Positions 5,844 to 20,102 are shown, numbered from the stretch's first letter. The stretch is 32,799 nucleotides of DNA from Chloroflexota bacterium (GCA_021789855.1 JAJYIW010000008.1:1-32799); one strand, 5' to 3'. Translations and numbers: made by a program. The notes: generated by a model not told the origin, from the sequence alone.

Positions 5844-7559
5844 ATGGATAAGGTAGAAAACCGAACACTTCCTTTGGCAATAAAAAAGCTGTTTGAAGAC
5901 CACCCATCCCTCGGGCAAATTTTACATAACATCCAGCAAGTGGTCTGGCTGCTTGATCTGAGGACCGGCGACATCCTCTATGTCAGCCCGTCGTTTGAGA
6001 CCGTTTGGGGCCGTACCCGTGAAAGTCTTTATGCCGATCCGTTAACCCTCATCAAAAACGTCCATCCCGAAGACCGGGTAAAAGTGATGTCGGCCAGTCC
6101 AGACGATATCCGCAAGGGCATGGACCAATCCTACCGGATCATCCGTCCAGATGGCAGCCTGCGTTGGATCTCTGCTCATACATTCTTATTTCATGGAGAA
6201 TCGTCGGATGTTTCCTATCAGATCTGTATTGCCCAGGATATCACCGAACAGAACCAGCTTGATCGGACATTACGAAAGGCCCTGGATCGTTCTCACGAGC
6301 AGTTTACTCTTAGCCAGCGGATGAGCCTGGCGCGAAAACCAGAAGCGGTGCTCAAAACGCTGATGTCTGCCTCAGAACTTCGCCCCGCAAAACGCGCCTT
6401 TATATTATTTTTTGATTCCCCGATGGATGGTCTCTCCCACGAGATTGAGGTGATTACTTCCTGGCCATCCGCTTCTAACCAGACCGATCTCCATTCAAAC
6501 GAACAGGCATCCCAGACCAGCCTGTTCGAGGACCTGGCTTCGTTGGAGCTTTTCCATCCTTCCAGGCCGGTGATTGTCTCAGAAATCTCAAAAGACCAAC
6601 GCCTGACACCCGCGGTACGGGATCTATTGGTCGAAGCGCAAATCGAAACAATCGCTATTTTCCCCCTGGTGGCTTTAGGAAACTGGCTGGGCTGTCTTTT
6701 GGTGTTTTTCCCCACAGAAAAGCATTTCGAACCGATTGAGCTACGCCATATCAAGGTGTTGGTCGATCAGGCCACCATCACTTTGTATAATCTCCAACTG
6801 CTGGAGATCGAAGCGGAATCCCGCCATGAGGCGGAGCGGGCCAACGAAATAAAAACCCGTTTTCTAGCCATGATTTCACATGAGCTTCGCACTCCTCTGA
6901 CCTCTATCAGGGGTTTTACCACCACGCTTCTCGCGGAAGATGTGGTCTGGGATCCCGAAGAGCAGCGTGATTTTATTCAAACGATTGAAGAGGAGGCCAA
7001 CCAGCTCCAGGAGCTGATCGACCACCTGCTAGATCTTTCTCGCCTGGAGGCAGGAAGGCTCCCCGTTGTGATGGAATCGCACACCCTCCAGGAAATCATC
7101 CAGGGCGTGCTCCCCCAATTTCAAGTCATGACCCAAAAGCATGTCCTTACTTTACGCCTGCCACCTGATTTACCCCCGGTGTTTGTGGATGCAAAACGTA
7201 TCGCTCAGGTGTTGGTCAATCTGGTGCAGAACGCCTCTAAATACTCCCCTGAAGCGACTGAAATCATACTTGCAGCCAGTGTCCGCGGTAGTTTTGTCAA
7301 TGTGAGCGTGAGCAATCAAGGACCTGGGATCCCACCGGCAGACCGTAAACGCGTGTTCCAGGCGTTCCAACGAGGTATTCACGAAGATGATAGCGGGAGT
7401 AAAGGCGCCGGGTTAGGCCTGGCTATCTGCAAGGGGTTGGTTGAGGCCCATGGCGGCCGGATCTGGATCAAAAGGCAAACCGATCCTGGAACAACCATTA
7501 CTTTCACTATTCCACTCGTTCCGCAAAAAACATCGGCCATTGCTCCGGAAAAGGCATAA
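5844..7559 (+). CDS. PAS/GAF sensor histidine kinase
   Basis: PAS region (ILYVSPSFETVWGR...HPEDR), GAF-like middle, HisKA FLAMISHELRTPLTSIRGF, HATPase LVNLVQNASKYSP and GAGLGLAICKGLVEAHGGRIW. Confidence 0.93.
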   Translation: MDKVENRTLPLAIKKLFEDHPSLGQILHNIQQVVWLLDLRTGDILYVSPSFETVWGRTRESLYADPLTLIKNVHPEDRVKVMSASPDDIRKGMDQSYRIIRPDGSLRWISAHTFLFHGESSDVSYQICIAQDITEQNQLDRTLRKALDRSHEQFTLSQRMSLARKPEAVLKTLMSASELRPAKRAFILFFDSPMDGLSHEIEVITSWPSASNQTDLHSNEQASQTSLFEDLASLELFHPSRPVIVSEISKDQRLTPAVRDLLVEAQIETIAIFPLVALGNWLGCLLVFFPTEKHFEPIELRHIKVLVDQATITLYNLQLLEIEAESRHEAERANEIKTRFLAMISHELRTPLTSIRGFTTTLLAEDVVWDPEEQRDFIQTIEEEANQLQELIDHLLDLSRLEAGRLPVVMESHTLQEIIQGVLPQFQVMTQKHVLTLRLPPDLPPVFVDAKRIAQVLVNLVQNASKYSPEATEIILAASVRGSFVNVSVSNQGPGIPPADRKRVFQAFQRGIHEDDSGSKGAGLGLAICKGLVEAHGGRIWIKRQTDPGTTITFTIPLVPQKTSAIAPEKA

Positions 7560-7566
7560 TCAATTT

Positions 7567-8250
7567 ATGGGAAATATATTAATTGTCGAAGACGATCCTA
7601 ACATCCGCAAGCTGGTGCGGGTTAACCTGGTAAAACGCGGGTATACAGTCAGTGAAGCGGCAGACAGCCACCAGGCAATGACCTTATTCCAAGAAGTTCC
7701 CGTTGACCTGGTTTTGCTGGACCTGGTGCTCCCTGGTCTTTCCGGGGTGGATGTGTGCCTCTGGATCCGAGCGCGATCGGATGTGCCTATCATCGTGGTG
7801 AGCGCCCGGTTGGAAGAAGATCTTAAGGTCGCAGCCCTGGATGCAGGCGCGGATGACTACGTCACCAAACCGTTCGGATCAGAAGAGTTACTGGCGAGGG
7901 TACGTGCTTTCTTGCGCCGGTCCTACACCGCCCCAAACACATCTGATACGAAAATCCAGATCGGCGAACTGAGGATTGACCTGGAAGCGCGGCGAGTGTT
8001 CATTGGCGATGAAGATCTGCATCTGACCCGGACGGAATACGCCATCCTGGCTGAACTTGCCGGGCACATGGATGCGATTGTGACTCATGATGAGTTGATC
8101 GCCCAGGTTTGGGGACCGGAGTATCGGGGGTCAAACCATTATTTACACAACTATTTGGGACGCCTGCGTAAAAAATTGGGGGATTATAGCGGTCTTCTCG
8201 AAACCATACCCGGTAGGGGTTATAACCTTCATTCGAAGGTAGAGCCTTAA
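7567..8250 (+). CDS. OmpR/PhoB-type response regulator
   Basis: MGNILIVEDDPNIRKLVRVNLVKRGY, LVLLDLVLPGLSG, GADDYVTKPF and a C-terminal winged helix (LTRTEYAILAELA...NYLGRLRKKLGD...IPGRGYNL). ATG at 7567 lies just after the kinase stop codon. Confidence 0.94.
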   Translation: MGNILIVEDDPNIRKLVRVNLVKRGYTVSEAADSHQAMTLFQEVPVDLVLLDLVLPGLSGVDVCLWIRARSDVPIIVVSARLEEDLKVAALDAGADDYVTKPFGSEELLARVRAFLRRSYTAPNTSDTKIQIGELRIDLEARRVFIGDEDLHLTRTEYAILAELAGHMDAIVTHDELIAQVWGPEYRGSNHYLHNYLGRLRKKLGDYSGLLETIPGRGYNLHSKVEP

Positions 8251-8275
8251 CCGTCCACGTCCAGATTAATAGACA

Positions 8276-8322
8276 TTTAATAGGGTATATCAAGGACATC
8301 GGGAGATCGGATCTCGTACGAT
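8276..8322 (+). promoter_or_regulatory. Repeated promoter-like element, copy A
   Basis: TTTAATAGGGTATATCAAGGACATCGGGAGATCGGATCTCGTACGAT; GGACAT, 17 nt, TACGAT. Upstream of RRM protein 1. Confidence 0.7.
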
Positions 8323-8366
8323 AGTCTTTATCAAGAACAATCTTTTGAATCGAAAGCAAAGGTAAA

Positions 8367-8654
8367 ATGGAAACAAAACTTTATATAGGTAATATGGCGC
8401 AGGAAACAACGGAGCAAGATTTGCGCACGATGTTCAGCGAGGCGGGTACTGTGGGATCGGTTGAAGTGATCATGGACCGCCAAACGGGTAAACCGAAGGG
8501 ATTCGCCTTTCTAACGATGAGCAGCCAGGCTGAGGCCGAGAAAGCCATCAGTATGTTCGATGCGAAAGAAGTGAACACCCGGGCGCTTAAGGTCAACATC
8601 GCCAGGCCTCGTGAAGAACGGCCGGCCATGGTGGGGCGCGTAAACACGCATTAA
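8367..8654 (+). CDS. RRM-domain RNA-binding protein 1
   Basis: METKLYIGNMAQETTEQDLR (RNP2 LYIGNM) and KGFAFLTM (RNP1); 95 aa. Confidence 0.92.
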   Translation: METKLYIGNMAQETTEQDLRTMFSEAGTVGSVEVIMDRQTGKPKGFAFLTMSSQAEAEKAISMFDAKEVNTRALKVNIARPREERPAMVGRVNTH

Positions 8655-8702
8655 GTTCTCAGGATATCAGAAGCGATCAACCTTCTGAGGCTGAATCACA
8701 TC

Positions 8703-8734
8703 GACACCTCCCGAAAATAAAATCGGGAGGTGTC
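8703..8734 (+). terminator. Terminator-like hairpin after RRM1
   Basis: Perfect 12-bp inverted repeat GACACCTCCCGA / TCGGGAGGTGTC; only a weak T-tract follows. Confidence 0.6.
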
Positions 8735-8763
8735 GTGTTTGTGGGAAACGAAATAGTTAGGAA

Positions 8764-8810
8764 TTTAATAGATTTTCACCAGGACATAGATAGGTCTTAT
8801 CTTGTACGAT
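8764..8810 (+). promoter_or_regulatory. Repeated promoter-like element, copy B
   Basis: TTTAATAGATTTTCACCAGGACATAGATAGGTCTTATCTTGTACGAT; GGACAT, 17 nt, TACGAT. Upstream of the 40-aa ORF. Confidence 0.68.
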
Positions 8811-8892
8811 AAGAATTAGGAGTTTTTAGCCGTTATCTTCCGATCATTCGTTGGGGCTAAAGATAACTAAAATATCGAGGAGGTGCATACAC

Positions 8893-9015
8893 ATGTCAAA
8901 CGAGATTATCAAGAAGAAAATTAAAAGATTGCCCAAAGGACAGCGCACCCACGTGCGGAGGCTGAAGCAAGAAGCCCGCAAATCTGGTATCGTTTACCGG
9001 CCGGCCAGCCAGTAG
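8893..9015 (+). CDS. Small highly basic protein, 40 aa, unknown function
   Basis: ATG after GAGGAGGTGCATACAC (strong SD); MSNEIIKKKIKRLPKGQRTHVRRLKQEARKSGIVYRPASQ*. Below the length cutoff of the supplied ORF track. Confidence 0.65.
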   Translation: MSNEIIKKKIKRLPKGQRTHVRRLKQEARKSGIVYRPASQ

Positions 9016-9076
9016 GGTTCCGTCAAACCCGATTCTATCCGTTCGATGGTCGATAGGCAGAACGCTTTACGTCCTG

Positions 9077-9121
9077 TCAAAGATGACCGAAACGCCTTTC
9101 AATATGTATATTCATCTTTGA
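9077..9121. repeat. Inverted repeat, 10-bp arms
   Basis: TCAAAGATGA (9077-9086) and TCATCTTTGA (9112-9121), between the 40-aa ORF and Dps-like 1. Confidence 0.6.
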
Positions 9122-9163
9122 CCGGGCAGTAGCCAAAGTTTTATTTAATAATAGAGGATAAAC

Positions 9164-9703
9164 ATGGCACGTACTAGTTTCTATGGACATAAAAATGTGG
9201 ATGTTACCATCCAGCCAAACATTGGATTGGATGCCAGTTCCCGTCAATCTGTCGTGGAAATCCTCAACCTGCTCCTCGCCGATGAAGCCGTTTTATCGTT
9301 CAAGACCCATAAGGCCGACGGACACCCAGGCGAAGACGGAGGCTCTGACCTGCAATCTTTATACGATGCCCAATACAAACAGATCCAAGACATCCTGAAA
9401 GAAATCGCGGAACGAGTCAGCATTCTGGGCGGGTCGGACCCCAAAAGTCTTGAAGAATTAATCGATTCGGCCCGATTAGATAGTAAGCCCAATGATGCCC
9501 CGGGCATCCTGCATATTCTAGGTGATCATGAAGCCTTCATCAGATTCCTTCGAGAAGATGCCCAGAAATGCTCTGAACTGTATGATGATCAGGGTACCTT
9601 TGCACTCCTGGTTAGTGTGATGTGCCTTCATGAAAAAATGGCCTGGATCCTGCGATCCAATATTACCTCAGGTCAGCTTGACCAAGGAAAACGGACACAA
9701 TAA
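9164..9703 (+). CDS. Divergent Dps/ferritin-like protein (paralog 1)
   Basis: Aligns along its length with the Dps-like protein at 10295 (TIQPNIGLDASSRQSVVEILNLLLADEA vs ITQPNIGLDNDVRRSVVDMLNITLADEA; FIRFLREDAQKCSELYDDQGTFALLVSVM vs CIRFLREDARLCTENFEDEGTYELLVRVM). Confidence 0.8.
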   Translation: MARTSFYGHKNVDVTIQPNIGLDASSRQSVVEILNLLLADEAVLSFKTHKADGHPGEDGGSDLQSLYDAQYKQIQDILKEIAERVSILGGSDPKSLEELIDSARLDSKPNDAPGILHILGDHEAFIRFLREDAQKCSELYDDQGTFALLVSVMCLHEKMAWILRSNITSGQLDQGKRTQ

Positions 9704-9789
9704 AGGACTTGCGGGGGGGCCTGCTAAGCTGACCGCCATGAGCTGGTGGAAATATCCAAGATACAAAATGATTTGAGGTGTGTAATCCT

Positions 9790-10119
9790 ATGGAAACAAA
9801 GCTTTATGTAGGGAATCTTTCTTACGAAACAACCGATTATGATCTACGCAGCCTGTTTGCCCAGGTTGGAACGGTCAATGAGGTCACTCTGATAAAAGAC
9901 CGCGACACAGGCAGCTTCAAGGGATTTGCGTTTGTTACGATGAACAGCCTGGAAGTCGCCAATAAGGCCATTGACTGGTTCAATGGGAAAAACCTTGGCA
10001 GTCGTAAATTGAAAGTAAATTTGGCCCGTCCTCGCGAGGAACGGTACCAGAACAATTACGACAGCAGCCAGCCGGGTGGTTATGGCCACAATTCCCAAAA
10101 CCAGGGTGGCTGGCGATAG
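9790..10119 (+). CDS. RRM-domain RNA-binding protein 2 with Gly/Asn/Gln-rich tail
   Basis: METKLYVGNLSYETTDYDLRSLF, KGFAFVTM, tail NNYDSSQPGGYGHNSQNQGGWR. Confidence 0.92.
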   Translation: METKLYVGNLSYETTDYDLRSLFAQVGTVNEVTLIKDRDTGSFKGFAFVTMNSLEVANKAIDWFNGKNLGSRKLKVNLARPREERYQNNYDSSQPGGYGHNSQNQGGWR

Positions 10120-10148
10120 CAGAAATCTCTATGATGGGCCTGTTTTCG

Positions 10149-10180
10149 GACCTTGCTCAGATCGAGCAAGGTCTTTTTTA
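10149..10180 (+). terminator. Rho-independent terminator after RRM2
   Basis: 10-bp stem GACCTTGCTC / GAGCAAGGTC with a 5-nt loop, followed by TTTTTTAT. Confidence 0.85.
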
Positions 10181-10204
10181 TCAGGAGCATCGATTTGTTA
10201 GTTA

Positions 10205-10251
10205 TTTTATAGGTTGTATAAGGGACATAGATCGCTCCTTTCGAATACCAT
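10205..10251 (+). promoter_or_regulatory. Repeated promoter-like element, copy C
   Basis: TTTTATAGGTTGTATAAGGGACATAGATCGCTCCTTTCGAATACCAT; GGACAT, 17 nt, TACCAT. Upstream of Dps-like 2. Confidence 0.72.
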
Positions 10252-10294
10252 AGTAGTAATGAAGCGAAAAACGATCTTGAGAAAGGAGATACCC

Positions 10295-10831
10295 ATGGAA
10301 CACAATCGAAATGACGGCCACAACACAATCCTCCAGGTCATCACCCAGCCGAATATCGGTCTGGATAATGATGTGCGTCGTTCGGTTGTGGATATGCTCA
10401 ACATCACATTGGCCGACGAGGCCCTTCTGAAAACAAAGACCCGCAGCGCCCATTGGAACGTTCGCGGTGTCGATTTTTTAAAATTGTATACTCTTTTTGA
10501 GACTCAATACCAATTGCTAAACAACATATCCGACGAGATCGCTGAGCGGGCCCGGATGCTGGGTGGTGTGACCATCGGCAGTCTTGAAGAATTTCTCAAT
10601 CATACCCGGCTGGAGGAACAGCCCGGGGTCGCGCCAGACATCCTGCACCTCTTAGCCGATCAAGAAGCCTGCATACGTTTCTTGCGCGAGGATGCTCGAT
10701 TATGCACGGAGAATTTCGAGGACGAAGGCACATACGAATTGTTGGTAAGGGTGATGCGTATACACGAAAAGATGGCCTGGATGCTCCGTTCACAAATCGA
10801 AAAGGAACCCGATCAAGGCGAAAGCCAGTAA
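10295..10831 (+). CDS. Dps family ferritin-like protein (paralog 2)
   Basis: ATG after GAAAGGAGATACCC; KTRSAHWNVRGVDFLKLYTLFETQYQLLNNISDEIAERARMLGG matches the Dps signature. Confidence 0.9.
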   Translation: MEHNRNDGHNTILQVITQPNIGLDNDVRRSVVDMLNITLADEALLKTKTRSAHWNVRGVDFLKLYTLFETQYQLLNNISDEIAERARMLGGVTIGSLEEFLNHTRLEEQPGVAPDILHLLADQEACIRFLREDARLCTENFEDEGTYELLVRVMRIHEKMAWMLRSQIEKEPDQGESQ

Positions 10832-10935
10832 GGGATTTTTAAGCATGAATAATCATCAAATTTATTGGCTTACTCCAGGAGAAGTACGGTTTATACCCGG
10901 TAGTAAGCCGAAGAATCTAATAGAGAGAAGAAGAA

Positions 10936-11391
10936 ATGACAGATTATAGAGATGTAAGAACCACACAACATGAACAGGGGCGAGAACAGCGAGTCGCCAC
11001 TTTTAAAGTCACCCAGGTAGTCTGGCTGCTGCTGGGCCTGCTCGAAACCGTGATTGGACTGCGGGTAATTTTCAAGTTGATCGCGGTCAATGGAGCTAAT
11101 TCATTCGCGGCGCTCCTTTATAACGTGACCAATCTTTTCGTGGCTCCCTTCACCAGTTTGGTGAAAGCCCCGGCATCTGGCGGCATGGTTTTAGAAATTT
11201 CTTCCATCATCGCCATGGTCGTTTACCTGCTGATCGCCTGGGGTCTTGAACGGATTATCTACGTGCTGTTCTACCGCCCGCAGGGACCTGTGACCGTCAG
11301 ACAGACCATGGTTGCCGAACATACCCCTGCGCAAGCACCCCTGGATGTTCGCCAAACGGTAACGACCGATCGCATTACGACTCCAAAATAG
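10936..11391 (+). CDS. YggT-family membrane protein 1
   Basis: FWLLLGLLE-type TM helix, LRVIFKLIAVNGANSFAALLYNVTNLFVAPFTSLV, second TM pair. Confidence 0.75.
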   Translation: MTDYRDVRTTQHEQGREQRVATFKVTQVVWLLLGLLETVIGLRVIFKLIAVNGANSFAALLYNVTNLFVAPFTSLVKAPASGGMVLEISSIIAMVVYLLIAWGLERIIYVLFYRPQGPVTVRQTMVAEHTPAQAPLDVRQTVTTDRITTPK

Positions 11392-11400
11392 GGAAATTTT

Positions 11401-11919
11401 ATGAACGAAGATCAAGAAATCAATGCTGTGGCTGTGGATCGCCGTGAAGAAACCTTGGTCACCCGCCACCCCGGCTATGTTGCGACCGAGCAAATGGTGC
11501 GCGATGTCGCTGCGGAACGCCGGATGGGAATGTTCCAGCTTTACCGCATCTTTTGGAGCATTCTGGCCTTTCTAGAAATTTTACTGGCCTTACGCTTCGT
11601 TCTGAGATTGATTTCTGCCAATGCGGAAAGCGGGTTTGGCATGCTCATTTACGGGGTCACGGGCCTGTTCGTTGCGCCGTTCAACGGGTTAATTTCGACG
11701 CCCACTCCCGGAGGATCAGCCATCGAAGTGACTACGCTCATTGCCATGGCCGTCTATGCGCTGATCTTTTGGGGAATCGGATATGTCATCGGATTGGTAG
11801 CGGACCTTATCTTGCCAGACTCACGCTCGTTTTTCACCCGCACAACCCGTCAGCAGACGCCAGGCGGTGAAGGAAACGTACGCACCACTCACACGACCAT
11901 CTCCAACGGCAAAATGTGA
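11401..11919 (+). CDS. YggT-family membrane protein 2
   Basis: Homologous to the preceding ORF: LRFVLRLISANAESGFGMLIYGVTGLFVAPFNGLISTPTPGG. Confidence 0.75.
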   Translation: MNEDQEINAVAVDRREETLVTRHPGYVATEQMVRDVAAERRMGMFQLYRIFWSILAFLEILLALRFVLRLISANAESGFGMLIYGVTGLFVAPFNGLISTPTPGGSAIEVTTLIAMAVYALIFWGIGYVIGLVADLILPDSRSFFTRTTRQQTPGGEGNVRTTHTTISNGKM

Positions 11920-12097
11920 TGCGCGGGAAGATGGCGTCAATGGCCTCTGGTGTTGTAATGGAACACCCTTTGGCTAAAACAGCAAACGCAGGAAGGGGTA
12001 GTAGACCTTCTTGTCATTTCAAACTTGCGAAGTGTTTAGACCTTTCGTAAGACAACTACAGAAAAACCTGTGAGAACAGGTACAGAGGAGGATTATT

Positions 12098-12370
12098 ATG
12101 GGATGGCTTGCATGGATCGTGGTTGGTTTGATCGCCGGCTGGTTAGCCGGAAGAGTGATGCGAGGAGGCGGTTATGGGCTGCTGGGCGACATCATCGTCG
12201 GCGTGCTTGGTGGATTGTTAGGAGGTTGGTTGGCGACCTCTGTCCTGCATATTGGCGCCGCGGTGAGTGGAATCAACCTGGAGTCGATCCTGGTGGCGTT
12301 TGTAGGAGCCGTAATTTTGCTAGTGCTGCTACGCCTCTTGACGGGCAGTCGAAGAAGCATTTTAAGGTAG
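12098..12370 (+). CDS. GlsB/YeaQ/YmgE-family stress-response membrane protein
   Basis: MGWLAWIVVGLIAGWLAGRVMRGGGYGLLGDIIVGVLGGLLGGWLA; ATG after AGAGGAGGATTATT. Confidence 0.9.
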   Translation: MGWLAWIVVGLIAGWLAGRVMRGGGYGLLGDIIVGVLGGLLGGWLATSVLHIGAAVSGINLESILVAFVGAVILLVLLRLLTGSRRSILR

Positions 12371-12393
12371 TGCTGCATCGCATCCATAAGTTC

Positions 12394-12427
12394 CTATCCG
12401 AAAGAATATTTTCGGATAGGTTTTTAT
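12394..12427 (+). terminator. Rho-independent terminator
   Basis: Perfect 11-bp stem CCTATCCGAAA / TTTCGGATAGG with a 6-nt loop, followed by TTTTTATT. Confidence 0.88.
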
Positions 12428-12493
12428 TGTGATAAAGATGATTGAAGGCAGGTTAGTTGGCCAACTGCCCAAAACAACCTCAAGACGAGGAGG

Positions 12494-13135
12494 ATGAATG
12501 GAAGTTCTGAAGTAGATCGCCAATCAAACTCAGCACCCGGGTAATCTCTCTATCGAGAAAAAGCCTCAATCTTCCGATCCATTACTAGCTAAGGCGCGTG
12601 CAGATAACGACACAGTTCTGAAAGAGCTAAAATCGCGAACAGGGGGTTTGAGCACCGCGGAAGCCGGCTCTCGTTCGAAACAGTATGGGTTCAACGAGAT
12701 TGCGCGGGAGAAGCGCCAATCCGCCCTGATACGCCTGCTGGTTAACTTCAAGAATCCGCTAGTCATCCTGCTTTTGGTGCTGGGTTTCGTTTCATTTCTC
12801 ACGGGTGACCTGCGAGCCATGGTGGTCATTTTCGCGAGGGTAAGATCGTGCTCGAGAAGCACCTGGATACCTGTGGAAATTCCAGCAATAAGGTGCTGCA
12901 ATATGGCTATTTGAACAGCTACCACCATACCGGCTTGAAGAATTTGCTCGATGCTGCGATCCTCGACCATGAGGAGCTAGAAGACAGCTTGAAAGCCAAG
13001 GAAAAATATACCAAGATCGACGAAATTCCATTCGACTTTATCCGCAAGCGCATGTCGGTGATTGTAGAAGACACAACCGGATTAAATACTTTGATCTGTA
13101 AAGGGGCGGTAGAAGGGCAGCCTACGGCGGCATAG
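12494..13135 (+). pseudogene. Remnant of an MgtA-like P-type (Mg2+-translocating) ATPase
   Basis: Frame 1: DNDTVLKELKSRTGGLSTAEAGSRSKQYGFNEIAREKRQSALIRLLVNFKNPLVILLLVLGFVSFLTGD (N-terminus/TM1-2). It jumps to another frame: EGKIVLEKHLDTCGNSSNKVLQYGYLNSYHHTGLKNLLD...IPFDFIRKRMSVIVEDTTGLNTLICKGAVEG (nucleotide-binding domain). Actuator domain and DKTGT are missing, and the TM C-terminus is absent. Confidence 0.85.
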
Positions 13136-13316
13136 CCCATCACCACGGTGGTAGATGAGGCGATGGCCGCGCTCAGCAATCAGCCCGGCAGCCCGCCCAG
13201 CTAACCTGGACGGCGCTATTCACTTAGGGAGGGTGTGGTCGAGAATAGCAATCTGCCTGGGTGTTCCTGTTAGGATATATTGCGACCGCCATTGGCGCGT
13301 CTGAAGGTTATGGTCT

Positions 13317-13637
13317 CTATCTGTTAAAATACCCGGAGACGCGGTGGCGGTGGCGGTAGCTACCGCCATGTCCGGCCAGGTCGATCAGGAGCGCGACCCC
13401 CAGCACAATCCATTTGTAGCCCACAATACCTCCCTGGAAGACAAAGAGGTACGCCAGGGTCGTCCAGGGTAGGAAAATGGCGCCAACCAGCGTCCAGAGC
13501 CAGGCAGGGAAGGCCAGGCCGCCCGGCAGGATCAAATGTTTAAAAGCTAGATCGCGGACTTGCGGATTCACCAGCCACCAGATAATAATGCCGATCCGTG
13601 AAATAAGCACCAGAAAAAGGGTAGTTATACAACACAT
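13317..13637 (-). CDS. Small conserved-looking membrane protein
   Basis: MCCITTLFLVLISRIGIIIWWLVNPQ... with two or three hydrophobic segments; start after TTTGGGAGGAAGCC on the reverse strand. Confidence 0.6.
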   Translation of the reverse strand: MCCITTLFLVLISRIGIIIWWLVNPQVRDLAFKHLILPGGLAFPAWLWTLVGAIFLPWTTLAYLFVFQGGIVGYKWIVLGVALLIDLAGHGGSYRHRHRVSGYFNR

Positions 13638-13735
13638 GGCTTCCTCCCAAATAAAAGTGCTAAAGAGATAATAGTACAAAATGATGCGATTGTAAAGATA
13701 GCATCACTCGCAACTGATTAAATTTATTTTAGGTT

Positions 13736-13782
13736 TTTTATAGGTTGTATCATGGACATTGATAGGCCGTTTCAGCTATAAA
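13736..13782 (+). promoter_or_regulatory. Repeated promoter-like element, copy D
   Basis: TTTTATAGGTTGTATCATGGACATTGATAGGCCGTTTCAGCTATAAA; GGACAT, 17 nt, TATAAA. Overlaps the ORF-track TTG start. Confidence 0.7.
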
Positions 13783-13788
13783 GACAGG

Positions 13789-14643
13789 GTGAACAAAAAT
13801 CGACGACGGATTGCAGTGTTGTTGATATTAACCTTCATGGCTCAATTGCTAATGGGGTGTATCGGTATAGATACCATCACGCCTGGATATTCACCCACAC
13901 CAGGTGAATTCTTGCCCACACCCGCCATGGCCGAATCGCTCATACCTGCTAACGCGCTGGCTCAGGCCACAATCGATTCTGGCCAGGGCCAGTTGCTGGA
14001 TCTGTCTCGCAAGGCCACTCAAGCAGTCTATCTGGTGAACGGAACTCAGACTGCACAGGCTCAGGCGGTTCTGGATGCCCAGGCTCTGCAAAACGCTCAG
14101 ACCGTGGTTACCTTGACGGCTTACCCGTTGACGGAGACTGCTAAAGCCCAGGTTATTGTAAACGCCCAGGCGACGGAAACGGCTCAGGCAGTTGCTAACA
14201 TGACGGCTTATCCAATGACAGCGACTCCTTTCGCCGTGACCAAGGCCGCTCTGCTGATGCAGCAATATGGCCGAGAACAACAATCTTTCGTGAACCAGAT
14301 CGTCATCCCGTTTATTCCTATCATGGCCACCCTGGATCTTTTATTGTTCATTCTCTTGATTATTTTTGGCTATCGCCGCTTTATGCTGAGGCCTCGCCCC
14401 TTGAGTACCTCACGGTTTAATGATAACCCTCGCCATTTGATCATGGTTGATAGCGTCGCATCAGACCATGATCCCCACCTTCGCCGGATTATCCCATATG
14501 AGCTCATGCCGTCCAACCCATCCGGCCTCCCCGGCAATTGTACGGTTCGCGTAGAAATTGTTAATGCGACTGAACCACCCGTAGCTCATTGGATCGCTGA
14601 GGCAGAGCGCCAATTAGCCAATGAAGGAGGGCTATTAGTATGA
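13789..14643 (+). CDS. Lipoprotein with Ala/Thr/Gln-rich repeats and a C-terminal TM segment
   Basis: Reassigned GTG start gives M(V)NKNRRRIAVLLILTFMAQLLMGC, a lipoprotein signal with lipobox; internal repeats (VVTLTAYPLTETAKAQ / VANMTAYPMTATP); TM segment LDLLLFILLIIFGY. Confidence 0.7.
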   Translation: MNKNRRRIAVLLILTFMAQLLMGCIGIDTITPGYSPTPGEFLPTPAMAESLIPANALAQATIDSGQGQLLDLSRKATQAVYLVNGTQTAQAQAVLDAQALQNAQTVVTLTAYPLTETAKAQVIVNAQATETAQAVANMTAYPMTATPFAVTKAALLMQQYGREQQSFVNQIVIPFIPIMATLDLLLFILLIIFGYRRFMLRPRPLSTSRFNDNPRHLIMVDSVASDHDPHLRRIIPYELMPSNPSGLPGNCTVRVEIVNATEPPVAHWIAEAERQLANEGGLLV

Positions 14644-14975
14644 GCGCTAATCGTTACGTTCCTGCCGCCCAAAACGTTGCTCAAACGATCCCGGGAATCC
14701 TTGCCGAGCAGGGGCTAAATCCACTCATCAGCCGCTTTGTTTTGACCGAAACCGAGCGGGGTAATGCCTGGTTGTTTGTGGTTATGGATGACAGTATCCT
14801 AGAATCCCTCGGCTCCTATGCCGCTCCCAGTATGCTGTCCAAAATTTCCACGATCTTACACGGACATCCGGTCATTTTCAGCAACTCCTTTGGCCTGCGG
14901 TATGCCGTGCTTCTCAGTCCATCGAAATATCCTCCAGAAGCGAGCCCGACTTTTCAATTCTCTGATCACGGCTGA
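14640..14975 (+). CDS. Hypothetical protein (111 aa), translationally coupled
   Basis: ATG overlaps the preceding stop (ATGA); continuous ORF between the lipoprotein and the DAG kinase. Confidence 0.6.
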   Translation: MSANRYVPAAQNVAQTIPGILAEQGLNPLISRFVLTETERGNAWLFVVMDDSILESLGSYAAPSMLSKISTILHGHPVIFSNSFGLRYAVLLSPSKYPPEASPTFQFSDHG

Positions 14976-15048
14976 ATTTTTCATTGGCCAGCCTTCGCGC
15001 TTAGGGGCGCACGAAATATTTTTTCATTTTATACTAAAGGGTGATCAA

Positions 15049-16053
15049 ATGGATGTTAATTCTCTGGGTAAAAAGAAATACGCGATGCGGGCGATAAGAG
15101 CCAAGCTGATCTTTAACCCTGGTTCGGGGAAACCTGGCGAGTCGCCAATCCAATTGTTGGATGTGATCAGCGAGATGCAGCTCTGGAATATTGTCCCAGA
15201 GGCATTTCTGGTTGAGCCGGACTGTGATTTGCCAAAGGTTATCGAGGACGCCCTCGCACAGGGGATCCGGTTGTTCGTGGTATGCGGAGGTGACGGCACT
15301 ATCTCGACTTCAGCCAGAACCCTGGCCGGAACCCGCGCCACATTGGGGATTATTCCCATTGGCACCCAGAATAACACCGCTCTCAGCCTGGGCATCCCAT
15401 CGAATATCCCCTCCGCTATCGCCATCCTTCGCAACGGCCGGCGCATTAAAGTGGACGTTGGTATGGCCTCATGCGCAGATATAAATATGCCCTTCCTGGA
15501 AGTATGCTCGGTAGGGCTGGTTTCGACCCTTTTTCCGTCTGCCGATGATATTCAACACGGCAACCTGGCCCGGGTTGGCGATTTCTTGACCTCCCTGGTC
15601 AGTTCACCACCCGCCGAAATACATCTATTGCTGGATAGCAAGCAGGAGATCCACAATATGGGGCACATGGTGTTGGTTTCCAATATGCCTTATATCGGCC
15701 TCCATTATCATCTTGGCATGGCCACATCGCATACCGATGGCTTGCTGGATGTGCTGTTCTTCTCCGACCTGACCAAAATGGATCTGCTGGGGTATGTTCT
15801 CCAGGGAGTGGGAGAAGGCTTTCCAGAAGACCCCCGCATCCAGCACTTCCATGTGCGCAGGGTGGATATCGACACCCATCCTGCCATGCCGGTAATGGTA
15901 GATGGAACGCCATTAGGAGAAGGTCTTGTGCGGATCGAAGTGCGCCGGCACGCCCTGGCCGTGATGGTCAGCCAGCCGCCACCAGAGGTGCTGCCAGAGT
16001 CAAGCATGGATCCAGAACAGCAAATAGTAGATGCAACCCACGCCAGGAACTAA
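15049..16053 (+). CDS. Diacylglycerol kinase / YegS-BmrU-type lipid kinase
   Basis: AKLIFNPGSGKPGES, LFVVCGGDGTISTSARTLAGTRATLGIIPIGTQNNTALSLGIP; start after AAAGGGTGATCAA. Confidence 0.87.
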   Translation: MDVNSLGKKKYAMRAIRAKLIFNPGSGKPGESPIQLLDVISEMQLWNIVPEAFLVEPDCDLPKVIEDALAQGIRLFVVCGGDGTISTSARTLAGTRATLGIIPIGTQNNTALSLGIPSNIPSAIAILRNGRRIKVDVGMASCADINMPFLEVCSVGLVSTLFPSADDIQHGNLARVGDFLTSLVSSPPAEIHLLLDSKQEIHNMGHMVLVSNMPYIGLHYHLGMATSHTDGLLDVLFFSDLTKMDLLGYVLQGVGEGFPEDPRIQHFHVRRVDIDTHPAMPVMVDGTPLGEGLVRIEVRRHALAVMVSQPPPEVLPESSMDPEQQIVDATHARN

Positions 16054-16795
16054 AAGCCCCCGGGTCTGGGGGCGTTTTACCCTTTGGGTGAGCCATCGCC
16101 AACCGGTTGTCCGGCTGGTCAGCCTGACGGTCAGTCTCGCTATATTTCTTGTGGTTCTACCAGCGTCCATGCGGGTTGCTTTTTGGAAAGGTTTGCTATC
16201 CCATAAGATCATTACAAGTATGCTTCTCGTTTTCAGCCTGCTGGCGATCTCTCTGGTATGGTCGACCGGCCAGCATGTAGATGCCTGGGCTTTCCTGGTC
16301 TTTAATGTGAGGGGCTCACGCCCACTTTGGTTGGACCGGCTAATGTTAGGTTTCACCCAGATCGGCAATGGAATCTTCACGGCTGCAATTGCCCTGGTTT
16401 TGTTCCTTGTAAGCGATCGCCTTCTGGCATACGAACTCATGCTGGGCACCCTGAGCTTATGGCTGGTGGTCGAGGCGGTGAAATATCTGGTCCACCGGTC
16501 TCGACCTTTCATCCGGCTTACCCAGGCGCGCATCGTTGGGCACCGGGTGGTCGGTCGTTCGTTCCCCAGCGGGCATACCAGTCAGGTCTTTTTTATGGCA
16601 ACGCTGATCGCAGAACACTTTCACTCTGGCGTGTGGGTAATGTTGTTGCTGTATACCATTGCGTTGTTGGTGGGTATCACGCGCATGTACATCGGGGCGC
16701 ATTACCCCCGAGATGTGCTGGCGGGAGCCATCCTGGGCACCGCCTGGGGGCTGGTGGGGGTGATTATCGACGGGTATGTTTCGAGCCAATTCTAA
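16031..16795 (+). CDS. PAP2-family membrane phosphatase
   Basis: KYLVHRSRPF, RSFPSGHTSQVFFMATL and ITRMYIGAHYPRDVLAGAILG (three PAP2 motifs); overlaps the upstream ORF by 23 nt. Confidence 0.92.
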   Translation: MQPTPGTKSPRVWGRFTLWVSHRQPVVRLVSLTVSLAIFLVVLPASMRVAFWKGLLSHKIITSMLLVFSLLAISLVWSTGQHVDAWAFLVFNVRGSRPLWLDRLMLGFTQIGNGIFTAAIALVLFLVSDRLLAYELMLGTLSLWLVVEAVKYLVHRSRPFIRLTQARIVGHRVVGRSFPSGHTSQVFFMATLIAEHFHSGVWVMLLLYTIALLVGITRMYIGAHYPRDVLAGAILGTAWGLVGVIIDGYVSSQF

Positions 16796-16814
16796 AATAT
16801 GTAGATATTTTAGA
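16791..16814. repeat. AT-rich inverted repeat, possible terminator, directly before element E
   Basis: TCTAAAATAT GTAG ATATTTTAGA, perfect 10-bp arms, overlapping the PAP2 stop codon. Confidence 0.6.
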
Positions 16815-16854
16815 GGTTGTATCAGGGACATAGATCGCTCTGTTCGTATATCAT
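16808..16854 (+). promoter_or_regulatory. Repeated promoter-like element, copy E
   Basis: TTTTAGAGGTTGTATCAGGGACATAGATCGCTCTGTTCGTATATCAT; GGACAT, 17 nt, TATCAT. Upstream of the eRF1-like/FtsH unit. Confidence 0.72.
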
Positions 16855-17073
16855 GATAGGGTATTCTCATCTAGAGAACACGGGTATTTATCCTGTAGAC
16901 AAATGATGGCAAATGAGGTTGTTATTGTACCCGACAAACATACCCTTAGCGGTGCACATGAGTTATATCGTATAGGAGCGCATGGTAATAAACATCCACC
17001 CCTTGAGGAATTTAATAACAACCATAACCCGATTTCAAGATGCAAAATTGCATCAAACGCAAAGGATAAAGTC

Positions 17074-17484
17074 ATGAAAAGCGAAGTAGGTTTGTGGATT
17101 GACCATCGCAAGGCCGTGATAGTCACTATAGTAAATGAGGTTGAGGTAACCCGGGAAGTAAGATCGAATCTGGAGAAACATATCCCCTTTTCCAGCGGCT
17201 CTCGTTCAAAAGCTCCCCATAAATCCCAAGGGCCAACCGCAGAGGATACGCGGGATAGGCTGTATGGTAACCATCTTGGCGGGTATTATGAGGGGATTAT
17301 CTCCCTCATCCGCGGCGCCGACTCAATTTGGATATTTGGCCCTGGCGAGGCCAAGGTCGAACTCGAAACACGCCTTAAGCACGAAGACCTTGGTGGGCGA
17401 ATTGTGGGGATTGACACCGTCGATAAGATGACGGACATGCAAATCGCGGCAAAAGTCCGAGGTCGTTTCTCAACTTTTTTATGA
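17074..17484 (+). CDS. Small protein of unknown function, possibly eRF1/pelota-domain-like
   Basis: ATG after AAAGGATAAAGTC; MKSEVGLWIDHRKAVIVTI...DSIWIFGPGEAKVELETRL. The GPGxxK segment recalls eRF1/pelota-like folds. The track's longer start at 16903 lacks a visible SD. Confidence 0.5.
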   Translation: MKSEVGLWIDHRKAVIVTIVNEVEVTREVRSNLEKHIPFSSGSRSKAPHKSQGPTAEDTRDRLYGNHLGGYYEGIISLIRGADSIWIFGPGEAKVELETRLKHEDLGGRIVGIDTVDKMTDMQIAAKVRGRFSTFL

Positions 17485-17553
17485 AATGTTAGAAGAGGAT
17501 GATGGTAAGGTCGTAGAACAAACGGCTCAAGGAAGGTTGAATGATATAAACCG

Positions 17554-17913
17554 GTGCAGGAATTTACTGAGGAGATCATTTTTCGCGATGGCCCGTCTGG
17601 ATTGTTCAGGCAAGAGGTAATCAACCGGACCAACCGGCGCGTCATGGCTATGATCATCCAGGAGCAATTTCCCGACCAGCCGCTCAAGTTTGGATCTTTA
17701 CCAACTGGCGAAACCCAAACCCCCGACCAGATCGCAATCATACCCATCAGCGTGATGCGATATTTGACGGATCAATCAGGTTTTCTTCTCGTGGATAGCA
17801 CAGAGACAAGCAAGTACGAGGCCTTTTATCCGGCGAATTTTGTCGCTCCTGATCCTGATTGGGTCCCGCCCTATCCCTATTGTTCCGAAAATGTCAGGTT
17901 TTGTGCGAAATGA
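17554..17913 (+). CDS. Hypothetical protein (119 aa)
   Basis: GTG start; stop overlaps the ftsH start (ATGA), implying coupling. Confidence 0.55.
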   Translation: MQEFTEEIIFRDGPSGLFRQEVINRTNRRVMAMIIQEQFPDQPLKFGSLPTGETQTPDQIAIIPISVMRYLTDQSGFLLVDSTETSKYEAFYPANFVAPDPDWVPPYPYCSENVRFCAK

Positions 17914-19775
17914 TTAAGACTACTGGAAATGAAAAAGAAGGCCAACCTGCGAAGCGAAGGTTTAATTTATCCATCACATCTCTGATTACCATCGCTTTGC
18001 TTGTATACGTGACCTATCGATTGATCACTGGTTTCGGTCCCGCACCGAAAACTATCCCATATAGTGAGTTCAAAAATGACTTAAATGCCGGGCAGATCAG
18101 CAGTGTCGTGATCAGCGATACGAGCATCAACGGATCGATGAGAGATGGCACAGCCTTTACGACCGTCCCTGTGCTTGATCCTGGCCTGACGAAGACATTG
18201 GAAGCTCAAAAGGTGCAAATTACCGGGCAACTGCCCAGCAATGGTGGAATTCTGGGTTTTCTATTGACCTGGATCTTGCCGTTGGCCTTGATGGTCGGGT
18301 TGTGGTATTTTTTCTTTGGGCGCAACCGGGGCGGCGGCAACCCGATGGGTAATATCTTTTCCTTTGGTAAAAGCAAAGCGCGGATCATCACCGGAGAACA
18401 AACTGGAGTCACCTTTAAGGATGTTGGCGGCGCCGGCGAGGCCATCACCGACCTCAAAGAAGTCACCGAGTTCTTGAAGAACCCGCTTCATTTTCAGCGA
18501 CTGGGCGGAAAAATGCCCAAAGGTGTTCTGTTGGTTGGCCCACCCGGTACCGGAAAGACGCTGCTGGCCAGAGCCGCCGCCGGCGAGGCGGGCGTGCAGT
18601 TTTTTAACTTGAGCGGCGCCGAGTTTGTTGAGATGTTTGTCGGTGTAGGCGCCTCGCGGGTGCGGGACCTATTCAACCAGGCCAAGAAAAGCGCCCCATC
18701 AATTATATTTATCGACGAGATCGACGCCATTGGGGGCCGCCGGGCTGGAGTCGGCGCCATGGGCGCGCACGAGGAGCGCGAGCAGACCCTCAACCAGCTT
18801 CTGGCCGAGATGGATGGTTTTGAAACTTCCCGCGGGGTGATCGTGATGGCCGCTACCAACCGGCCCGAAATCCTCGATCCAGCGCTGCTCAGACCAGGAC
18901 GGTTTGACCGCCAGATTATGGTCGACCTGCCTGACCGGCAGGGGCGCCTCGAAATTATCGAGATTCATGCCCGGCAGGTGATCCGCGCCGAAAATGTTAA
19001 CCTGGAGGCAATTGCCCAGATCACCCCCGGGTTTTCGGGGGCGGACCTGGCCACCCTGGTTAATGAAGCAGCGTTGCTGGCTTCCCGGAATGGAAAAGAC
19101 GTCGTGGAAATGAGTGATTTTGACGCGGCATTCGAACGGGTGGTGGCTGGCTCGGAGCACAGGACCCGTTCGATCACCACGGATGAAAAACGCGTGATCG
19201 CCGTGCACGAAGCAGGGCACGCGCTGATTGCCAGCTTGATGCCCAACGCGGATAAGGTGCGCAAAGTGACGATTGTCCCCCGGGGACGAGCGATGGGATA
19301 CACCATGCAGCTTCCCACCAATGACCGCTACGTGCTGGGTGAAAGGGAGCTGGCAGCCCGTTTGACCGTCCTGGTGGGCGGACGGGTAGCAGAAGACCTG
19401 GAATTTGGCGAGGTTTCTACCGGCGCGGTGGATGACCTGGCGCACGCCACCGACCTGGCCCGAAAAATGGTCACAGAATTTGGCATGAGCCCGATCCTGG
19501 GGCCCGTCCGCCTGGCGTCGGATATGCAGGCGAACTATCTCAGCCAACAACTCGGCCTGGACGCGCGGGTCAGCCAGGAGACAGCCACCCTGGTGGATAC
19601 GGAGACCCGCCGGATCATCGAAGAAGCCGTGGATGAAGCCAGGGGTCACCTCGAAAACCATCGAGCGGTGTTGGACCAACTGGCGGATATGTTATGCGAG
19701 CACGAAACGGTGGACGGCGCCCAGATAGACGCTCTTCTCGAGAAAATTGAATTTCAAGAACCGATCGCCGTTTAA
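17910..19775 (+). CDS. ftsH: ATP-dependent zinc metalloprotease FtsH
   Basis: [18 protein letters not shown] (Walker A), [11 protein letters not shown] (Walker B), [20 protein letters not shown] (SRH), [11 protein letters not shown] (Zn site). ATG at 17910. Confidence 0.96.
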
Positions 19776-20102
19776 ATTGGACATGTTCTGGTTGACATAA
19801 AATCCCCCATATAGTTGGCAGTGAAGGGGCGACCACGCTCTGCTGTTGTAAAAAACCGGAGGGAAGACGAAGGATAGGGGAAACTAAGCCTTTACTTTCA
19901 TAAAATCATCCTTGAAGATGACATAAAATCGGAATACAATAGGATATATTGGGTATAATTATTACTCAATAGACTATTTCAGAGAAACCCCCGCGGAAGG
20001 GGAAAGAAAAAAGGAGGGAAAATTCGGACCCTGAAAATAGAGAGATTGAGTTGTCGGCAAAGATAAATTCAGCTTATCATCTGACCACAAAGGAAAATCC
20101 AA

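Follow-up and report, generated by a model that had tools for sequence, protein, structure and literature searches.

Why should a 47-bp sequence occur five times, always on the + strand, within a few kilobases of a bacterial genome? The question is raised by a stretch of 32,799 nucleotides from a Chloroflexota bacterium (GCA_021789855.1 JAJYIW010000008.1:1-32799), hereafter the window, in which five copies of such an element (the box, Table 1) align without gaps and carry a -10-like hexamer exactly 17 bp after the sequence GGACAT (TACGAT, TACGAT, TACCAT, TATAAA and TATCAT for copies 1 to 5). Alignment and a leave-one-out matrix confirm the copies, their positions and the constant spacing reported by an initial annotation, which had proposed that they define an undescribed stress regulon. 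The present analysis indicates that the box is probably the binding site of an OmpR/PhoB-family response regulator (RR) encoded at 7564-8250, lying in sigma70 promoters of the PhoB type and thereby defining a stress regulon. The motif, its spacing, its promoter-like placement, its target genes and its phylogenetic association with the RR are established.

In leave-one-out scoring, copies 1 to 5 reach 36.7, 42.4, 52.6, 38.8 and 55.6 bits, compared with about 4 bits or less for the best non-member site on either strand of the window under the same matrix. A short, loose pattern (TTGTATNNNGGACAT, three mismatches allowed) performs no better than chance, indicating that the signal resides in the full 47 bp. 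A sequence model run over the whole 3.4-Mb genome (333 contigs) recovers exactly the five window copies, with copy 3 as the best match in the genome and the next matches at E values of 0.04 and 0.11; the regulon in this genome is a single 8.6-kb island. All five copies are intergenic, as the initial annotation had stated, since the seeming overlaps with genes at 10214 and 13759 are traced to a mechanical choice of the first TTG; the true starts are likely an ATG at 10295 (Dps2) and a GTG at 13789 (lipoprotein).

The distribution of the box among related genomes points to the factor that may act on it. RR orthologs (73-85% identical) were found in 5 of the first 36 genomes of the same family, and the matrix of the window copies located boxes beside the RR in all five of these relatives. 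A model of 18 copies was then run on 101 genomes of the family and 301 of the order, and the RR was searched for in the identical sets. At the family level, box and RR occur together in 19 genomes, the RR alone in 1, the box alone in 3 and neither in 78, such that the box is present in 19/20 RR-bearing genomes versus 3/81 others. The corresponding order-level counts are 11, 2, 1 and 287. Presence and absence of the two also shift together within individual genera (g4, g9, g11, g16 and g58). Among the exceptions, the RR gene of G084 (RR only) is cut at a contig end, the contig of G081 (box only) ends within the kinase ortholog, and G063 (box only) shows a weak partial match that is put down to chance. 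In G245 (RR only, from another family, with an RR of 70% identity), a diverged box (score 19.4) follows the RR at about 160 bp. G252, which lay outside the training of the model and is the sole g16 genome found by either search, was found by both, and its box (49.7) immediately follows the RR. In a further Chloroflexi metagenome-assembled genome (MAG), an RR of 57% identity is accompanied by a weak candidate box (14 bits) at the expected place. Where the close matches have named records, these are Anaerolineaceae or Chloroflexi MAGs. Boxes are also found in relatives on contigs apart from the RR (e.g., G007 C34, G117 C4 and G118 C18), which points to a trans-acting factor, and the Dps genes of the RR-less genomes G003, G110, G001 and G019 have no box.

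The RR combines a response-regulator domain (PF00072, E 2.2e-30) with a winged helix (PF00486, E 4.2e-17). Its orthologs are 68-86% identical and mostly invariant in the recognition-helix region, and the phospho-acceptor Asp, the switch Ser/Thr and the Lys (D53, S80 and K102) are invariant across 12 orthologs. The closest full-length solved relative is KdpE (4kfc, 4kny; E about 1e-44). In nearly all island-bearing relatives the RR adjoins an ortholog, 52-72% identical, of the histidine kinase (HK) encoded beside it here, a protein in which no membrane segment is evident. HK and RR form the sole regulatory pair seen conserved in the islands, often with a box directly after the RR stop; in the window, copy 1 starts 25 bp past that codon. 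The initial annotation had not connected the pair (5844-8250) with the box, a connection that is made here. One relative, G103 (L126, L127), holds two RR orthologs (79% and 82% identical), each accompanied by a separate Dps unit and by a box of a different flavour, and its second island may reflect transfer or contamination. In G104 (L114 3485-3675), a box and Dps gene are closely preceded by an RR fragment (68% identity over 63 RR residues), a partial duplication of the RR.

The architecture of the element rests on 89 copies in the fetched loci of about 22 related genomes, which yield the consensus TTttatAGgttnTaTtaGGGACaTnGATAGcnccttTcnnaTAngAT. GGA is found in 89/89 copies and TAnnnT in 84/89, placed 17 bp downstream of the GGACAT position. 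The conserved span covers positions 1-30, beyond the needs of sigma contacts: positions 1-8, 13 and 15, upstream of any such contact, and 26-30, within the spacer, are strongly conserved. Of 43 bits in all, about 18 fall upstream of GGACAT and about 11 within the spacer. The last conserved block stops 11 bp short of the -10, and self-similarity of the motif is clearly positive only at offsets of 10, 11 and 12 (z 2.0-2.3), a weak form of the pattern that direct repeats on one face of the helix would give. An inverted-repeat reading was set aside, having only two weak centres (z 2.2-2.4) among many tested. An RNA element was likewise rejected, as an Rfam scan of 7000-20000 found no family and transcripts from the box promoter would not include the conserved block, which is situated upstream of the -10.

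These features suggest a mechanism in which the upstream ~30 bp of the element (TTTtATAGgttgTaTtaGGGACaTnGATAG) would be the RR binding site, apparently made up of two or three half-sites in the same direction, about 11 bp apart (TATAG / TTAGG / GATAG), and ending 11 bp before a sigma70-type -10 (TAnnAT). GGACAT is read, by analogy, as part of the middle half-site and not as a true -35, because published direct repeats of the PhoB/PhoP type overlap or replace the -35 and contact sigma region 4 (PMC3413638; PMC4971064). The kinase would sense stress and phosphorylate the adjoining RR, which would stand in for the -35 contact and, like PhoB, recruit RNA polymerase via sigma region 4, jointly switching on the Dps, RRM, YggT, GlsB-like, lipoprotein/DAGK/PAP2 and FtsH units. 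We infer from sequence that the RR binds the box, that it activates instead of repressing, and that stress is the signal.

The placement of the box in relatives is that expected of a promoter. A co-directional gene start, as assigned by a simple open reading frame (ORF) caller, follows within 350 bp for 78/89 copies, versus 28 when the same copies are read on the opposite strand, and 3/89 lie inside ORFs of at least 100 aa. The element is therefore not a repeat at random positions, the outcome that the initial annotation had named as refuting its proposal. In each island of the first five RR-bearing relatives, a box precedes a Dps gene. Other box-headed units in relatives encode CsbD, YqjD-like, YggT, GlsB-like and Usp proteins, superoxide dismutase (SOD) with a rubrerythrin-like protein, CBS, rhomboid, an ice-binding-like protein with sortase, AI-2E/BrkB membrane proteins and, once, an extracytoplasmic function (ECF) sigma factor. 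This gene content (Dps, CsbD, Usp, SOD and small membrane stress proteins) fits a general-stress regulon. Non-random placement and stress genes behind the box across many genera support the notion of an undescribed stress regulon. In G117 (L119 4770-5294), the ECF sigma gene starts 212 bp downstream of a box, and a regulatory cascade is possible. The Dps genes of G003 and G110 (L173 1303-1360, L174 1150-1200) are preceded by a Fur/PerR-like sequence of the GATAATGATTATC type.

Could an alternative sigma factor, of the ECF or the group-2/3 general-stress type, instead recognise the box as its promoter, with GGGACAT as the -35, a 17-bp spacer and TAnnAT as the -10, in the manner of SigB or RpoS? 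GGAC resembles ECF -35 elements, the spacing is fixed in all copies, the targets resemble a SigB/RpoS regulon, and G117 has the ECF sigma gene mentioned above. Nevertheless, this is unlikely, as conservation is not confined to the -35 and -10 but is strong at the far upstream positions and in the spacer, the -10 is sigma70-like, and no sigma gene was seen conserved in the islands (no genome-wide sigma search was made), whereas HK and RR are. The initial annotation had offered a shared activator or a special sigma factor; the activator fits better, because of the co-occurrence with the RR, a conserved stretch of ~30 bp that extends into the spacer, and the sigma70-like -10. Repression by the RR through the box, released on stress, would suit a site that overlaps the core promoter, where repressors bind as well. 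Such a role is distinctly unlikely, given that promoters with GGACAT instead of TTGACA, and no consensus -35, look weak and activator-dependent, and that the position of the repeats suits class II activation by regulators of the PhoB/PhoP type (PMC3413638). Recent duplication or a dispersed repeat resembling a miniature inverted-repeat transposable element, devoid of regulatory function, might be suspected from five similar copies in 8.6 kb of one genome. It is rejected as highly improbable: similarity among the gap-free window copies ends near the 47-57 bp element, copies are strongly co-directional with genes, and across genera flanks and non-contact positions diverge while the invariant bases and the spacing are kept, a contact-like pattern of conservation.

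Several observations weigh against assigning the box to the RR. At offset 11 the direct-repeat signal reaches p about 0.014 before correction for 12 offsets, which is weak, and in the window no box precedes the HK/RR operon, so that autoregulation is not seen there. The Fisher value for the family genomes (p 1.8e-16) ignores phylogeny, and with genomes unevenly sampled across the tree it overstates their independence. With the five-copy matrix and a threshold of 14 bits, 80 sites turn up in the 539 kb of island loci and none in the 1.29 Mb that surround paralogous RRs. The former count is partly circular, as the island loci were fetched with the 18-copy model; free of this circularity are the five-copy matrix applied to the first five relatives, G252 and the empty 1.29-Mb control. 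Because RR, HK, Dps and box move together as an island, their co-occurrence does not by itself point to the RR. G093, unexplained, carries a strong box with no RR ortholog in the assembly. This genome, and a linkage that makes co-occurrence non-specific, would also suit a box that serves another trans-acting regulator outside the island, the RR being a linked member only, which is quite unlikely in view of HK/RR as the one conserved regulatory pair seen, the box so often directly behind the RR, and the parallel presence and absence of both within genera. The RR is accordingly the best, not the only, candidate for the box-binding factor.

SigB and RpoS general stress regulons comprise similar genes, i.e., Dps, CsbD, GlsB-like, Usp and SOD, but are driven by sigma factors, whereas the regulon described here is most likely driven by an RR. 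In cyanobacteria, the OmpR-family RR RpaB acts at a conserved promoter box, HLR1, before stress genes; that motif is unrelated to the present one, the genes respond to light stress and the lineage is different. The PhoB system shares an OmpR/PhoB-family RR and a site, apparently of direct repeats in the box as well, that takes the place of the -35 in front of a sigma70 -10 (PMC3413638), and the E. coli pho box has 22 bp with two 7-bp repeats and AT-rich spacers (PMC4971064). The box here differs in recognition sequence, possibly in having three repeats, in heading stress and not phosphate genes, and in having a PAS-GAF kinase that shows no evident membrane segment. KdpE, the solved relative, also binds AT-rich direct-repeat half-sites (PMC3264566), but controls a potassium pump (kdpFABC) and has another kinase and other targets. 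CosR of Campylobacter jejuni is described as an OmpR-type oxidative-stress regulator (PMC3139631); it is essential there and of unrelated lineage, and the likeness rests on RR type and stress role.

The regulon and motif appear to be new, though of a known kind: searches of the literature on response regulators, Dps, CsbD or general stress in Anaerolineae/Chloroflexi, with subscription journals mostly outside their coverage, returned no description of them. For a group that is largely uncultured, they provide a testable set of regulator, motif and targets in stress control. With the motif, operons can be predicted from sequence alone, and small proteins whose function is unknown (the 40-aa protein, the eRF1-like protein and DUF5670) are linked to the stress regulon. 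Should the RR be confirmed, a two-component system would do the work of SigB or RpoS elsewhere. Tentatively, and with a fair share of doubt, part of the Anaerolineaceae-type Chloroflexota may run general-stress genes and unlinked operons by means of a mobile HK/RR island, without an alternative sigma factor, whose regulator acts through a class II box of three repeats, as a general stress response that evolved independently and is gained and lost as a unit.

Table 1. Boxes, regulators and box-headed units in the window.
Feature	Position	Strand	Evidence
Box copy 1, candidate promoter of RRM1	8276-8322	+	matrix, alignment, genome-wide model
Box copy 2, candidate promoter of 40-aa protein/Dps1/RRM2	8764-8810	+	matrix, alignment, genome-wide model
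Box copy 3, candidate promoter of Dps2/YggT/YggT/GlsB-like	10205-10251	+	sequence model E 2.0e-10; box upstream of Dps kept in relatives
Box copy 4, candidate promoter of lipoprotein/DAGK/PAP2	13736-13782	+	matrix, alignment, genome-wide model
Box copy 5, candidate promoter of eRF1-like/FtsH	16808-16854	+	sequence model E 1.6e-9
PAS-GAF-HisKA-HATPase_c histidine kinase, proposed sensor	5844-7559	+	Pfam PAS_3, GAF, HisKA, HATPase_c
OmpR/PhoB-family RR, proposed box-binding activator	7564-8250	+	Pfam Response_reg, Trans_reg_C
RRM1 RNA-binding protein	8367-8654	+	Pfam RRM_1 E 6.7e-20
Intrinsic terminator closing RRM1 unit	8702-8735	+	13-bp stem
40-aa basic protein, conserved	8893-9015	+	no Pfam match; relatives 55-72% identical
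Dps1 (ferritin-like)	9164-9703	+	Pfam Ferritin
RRM2	9790-10119	+	Pfam RRM_1
Intrinsic terminator closing Dps1/RRM2 unit	10148-10174	+	terminator search
Dps2 (ferritin-like)	10295-10831	+	Pfam Ferritin E 7.7e-20
YggT-family membrane protein	10936-11391	+	Pfam YGGT
Second YggT-like protein	11401-11919	+	Pfam YGGT E 3.4e-5, under curated cut-off
GlsB/YeaQ-like transglycosylase-associated protein	12098-12370	+	Pfam Transgly_assoc
Intrinsic terminator ending copy 3 unit	12393-12420	+	terminator search
Lipoprotein, signal ending LMGC	13789-14643	+	sequence; no Pfam match
Diacylglycerol-kinase family protein	15049-16053	+	Pfam DAGK_cat, YegS_C
PAP2 phosphatase	16031-16795	+	Pfam PAP2
Protein labelled eRF1-like by the initial annotation	17074-17484	+	no Pfam match; relatives 49-73% identical
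FtsH protease	17904-19775	+	Pfam Peptidase_M41, AAA, FtsH_ext

The units headed by the copies stand as first listed, save that of copy 3, which was incomplete and now includes the second YggT-like and the GlsB/transglycosylase-associated genes. The first three units are delimited by strong intrinsic terminators; those closing the RRM1 and Dps1/RRM2 units directly precede copies 2 and 3. In copy 4, the TATAAA -10 ends 6 nt before the lipoprotein GTG (window 13777-13791), and the lipoprotein mRNA is probably leaderless, because this GTG sits where TATAAA-driven transcription would begin. The location of the eRF1-like gene downstream of a box is kept in relatives, in which it is sometimes adjacent to the gene for the 40-aa protein. 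Within the island, 12519-13136 holds a decayed P-type cation ATPase in broken-frame pieces (Pfam Cation_ATPase_N, Cation_ATPase).

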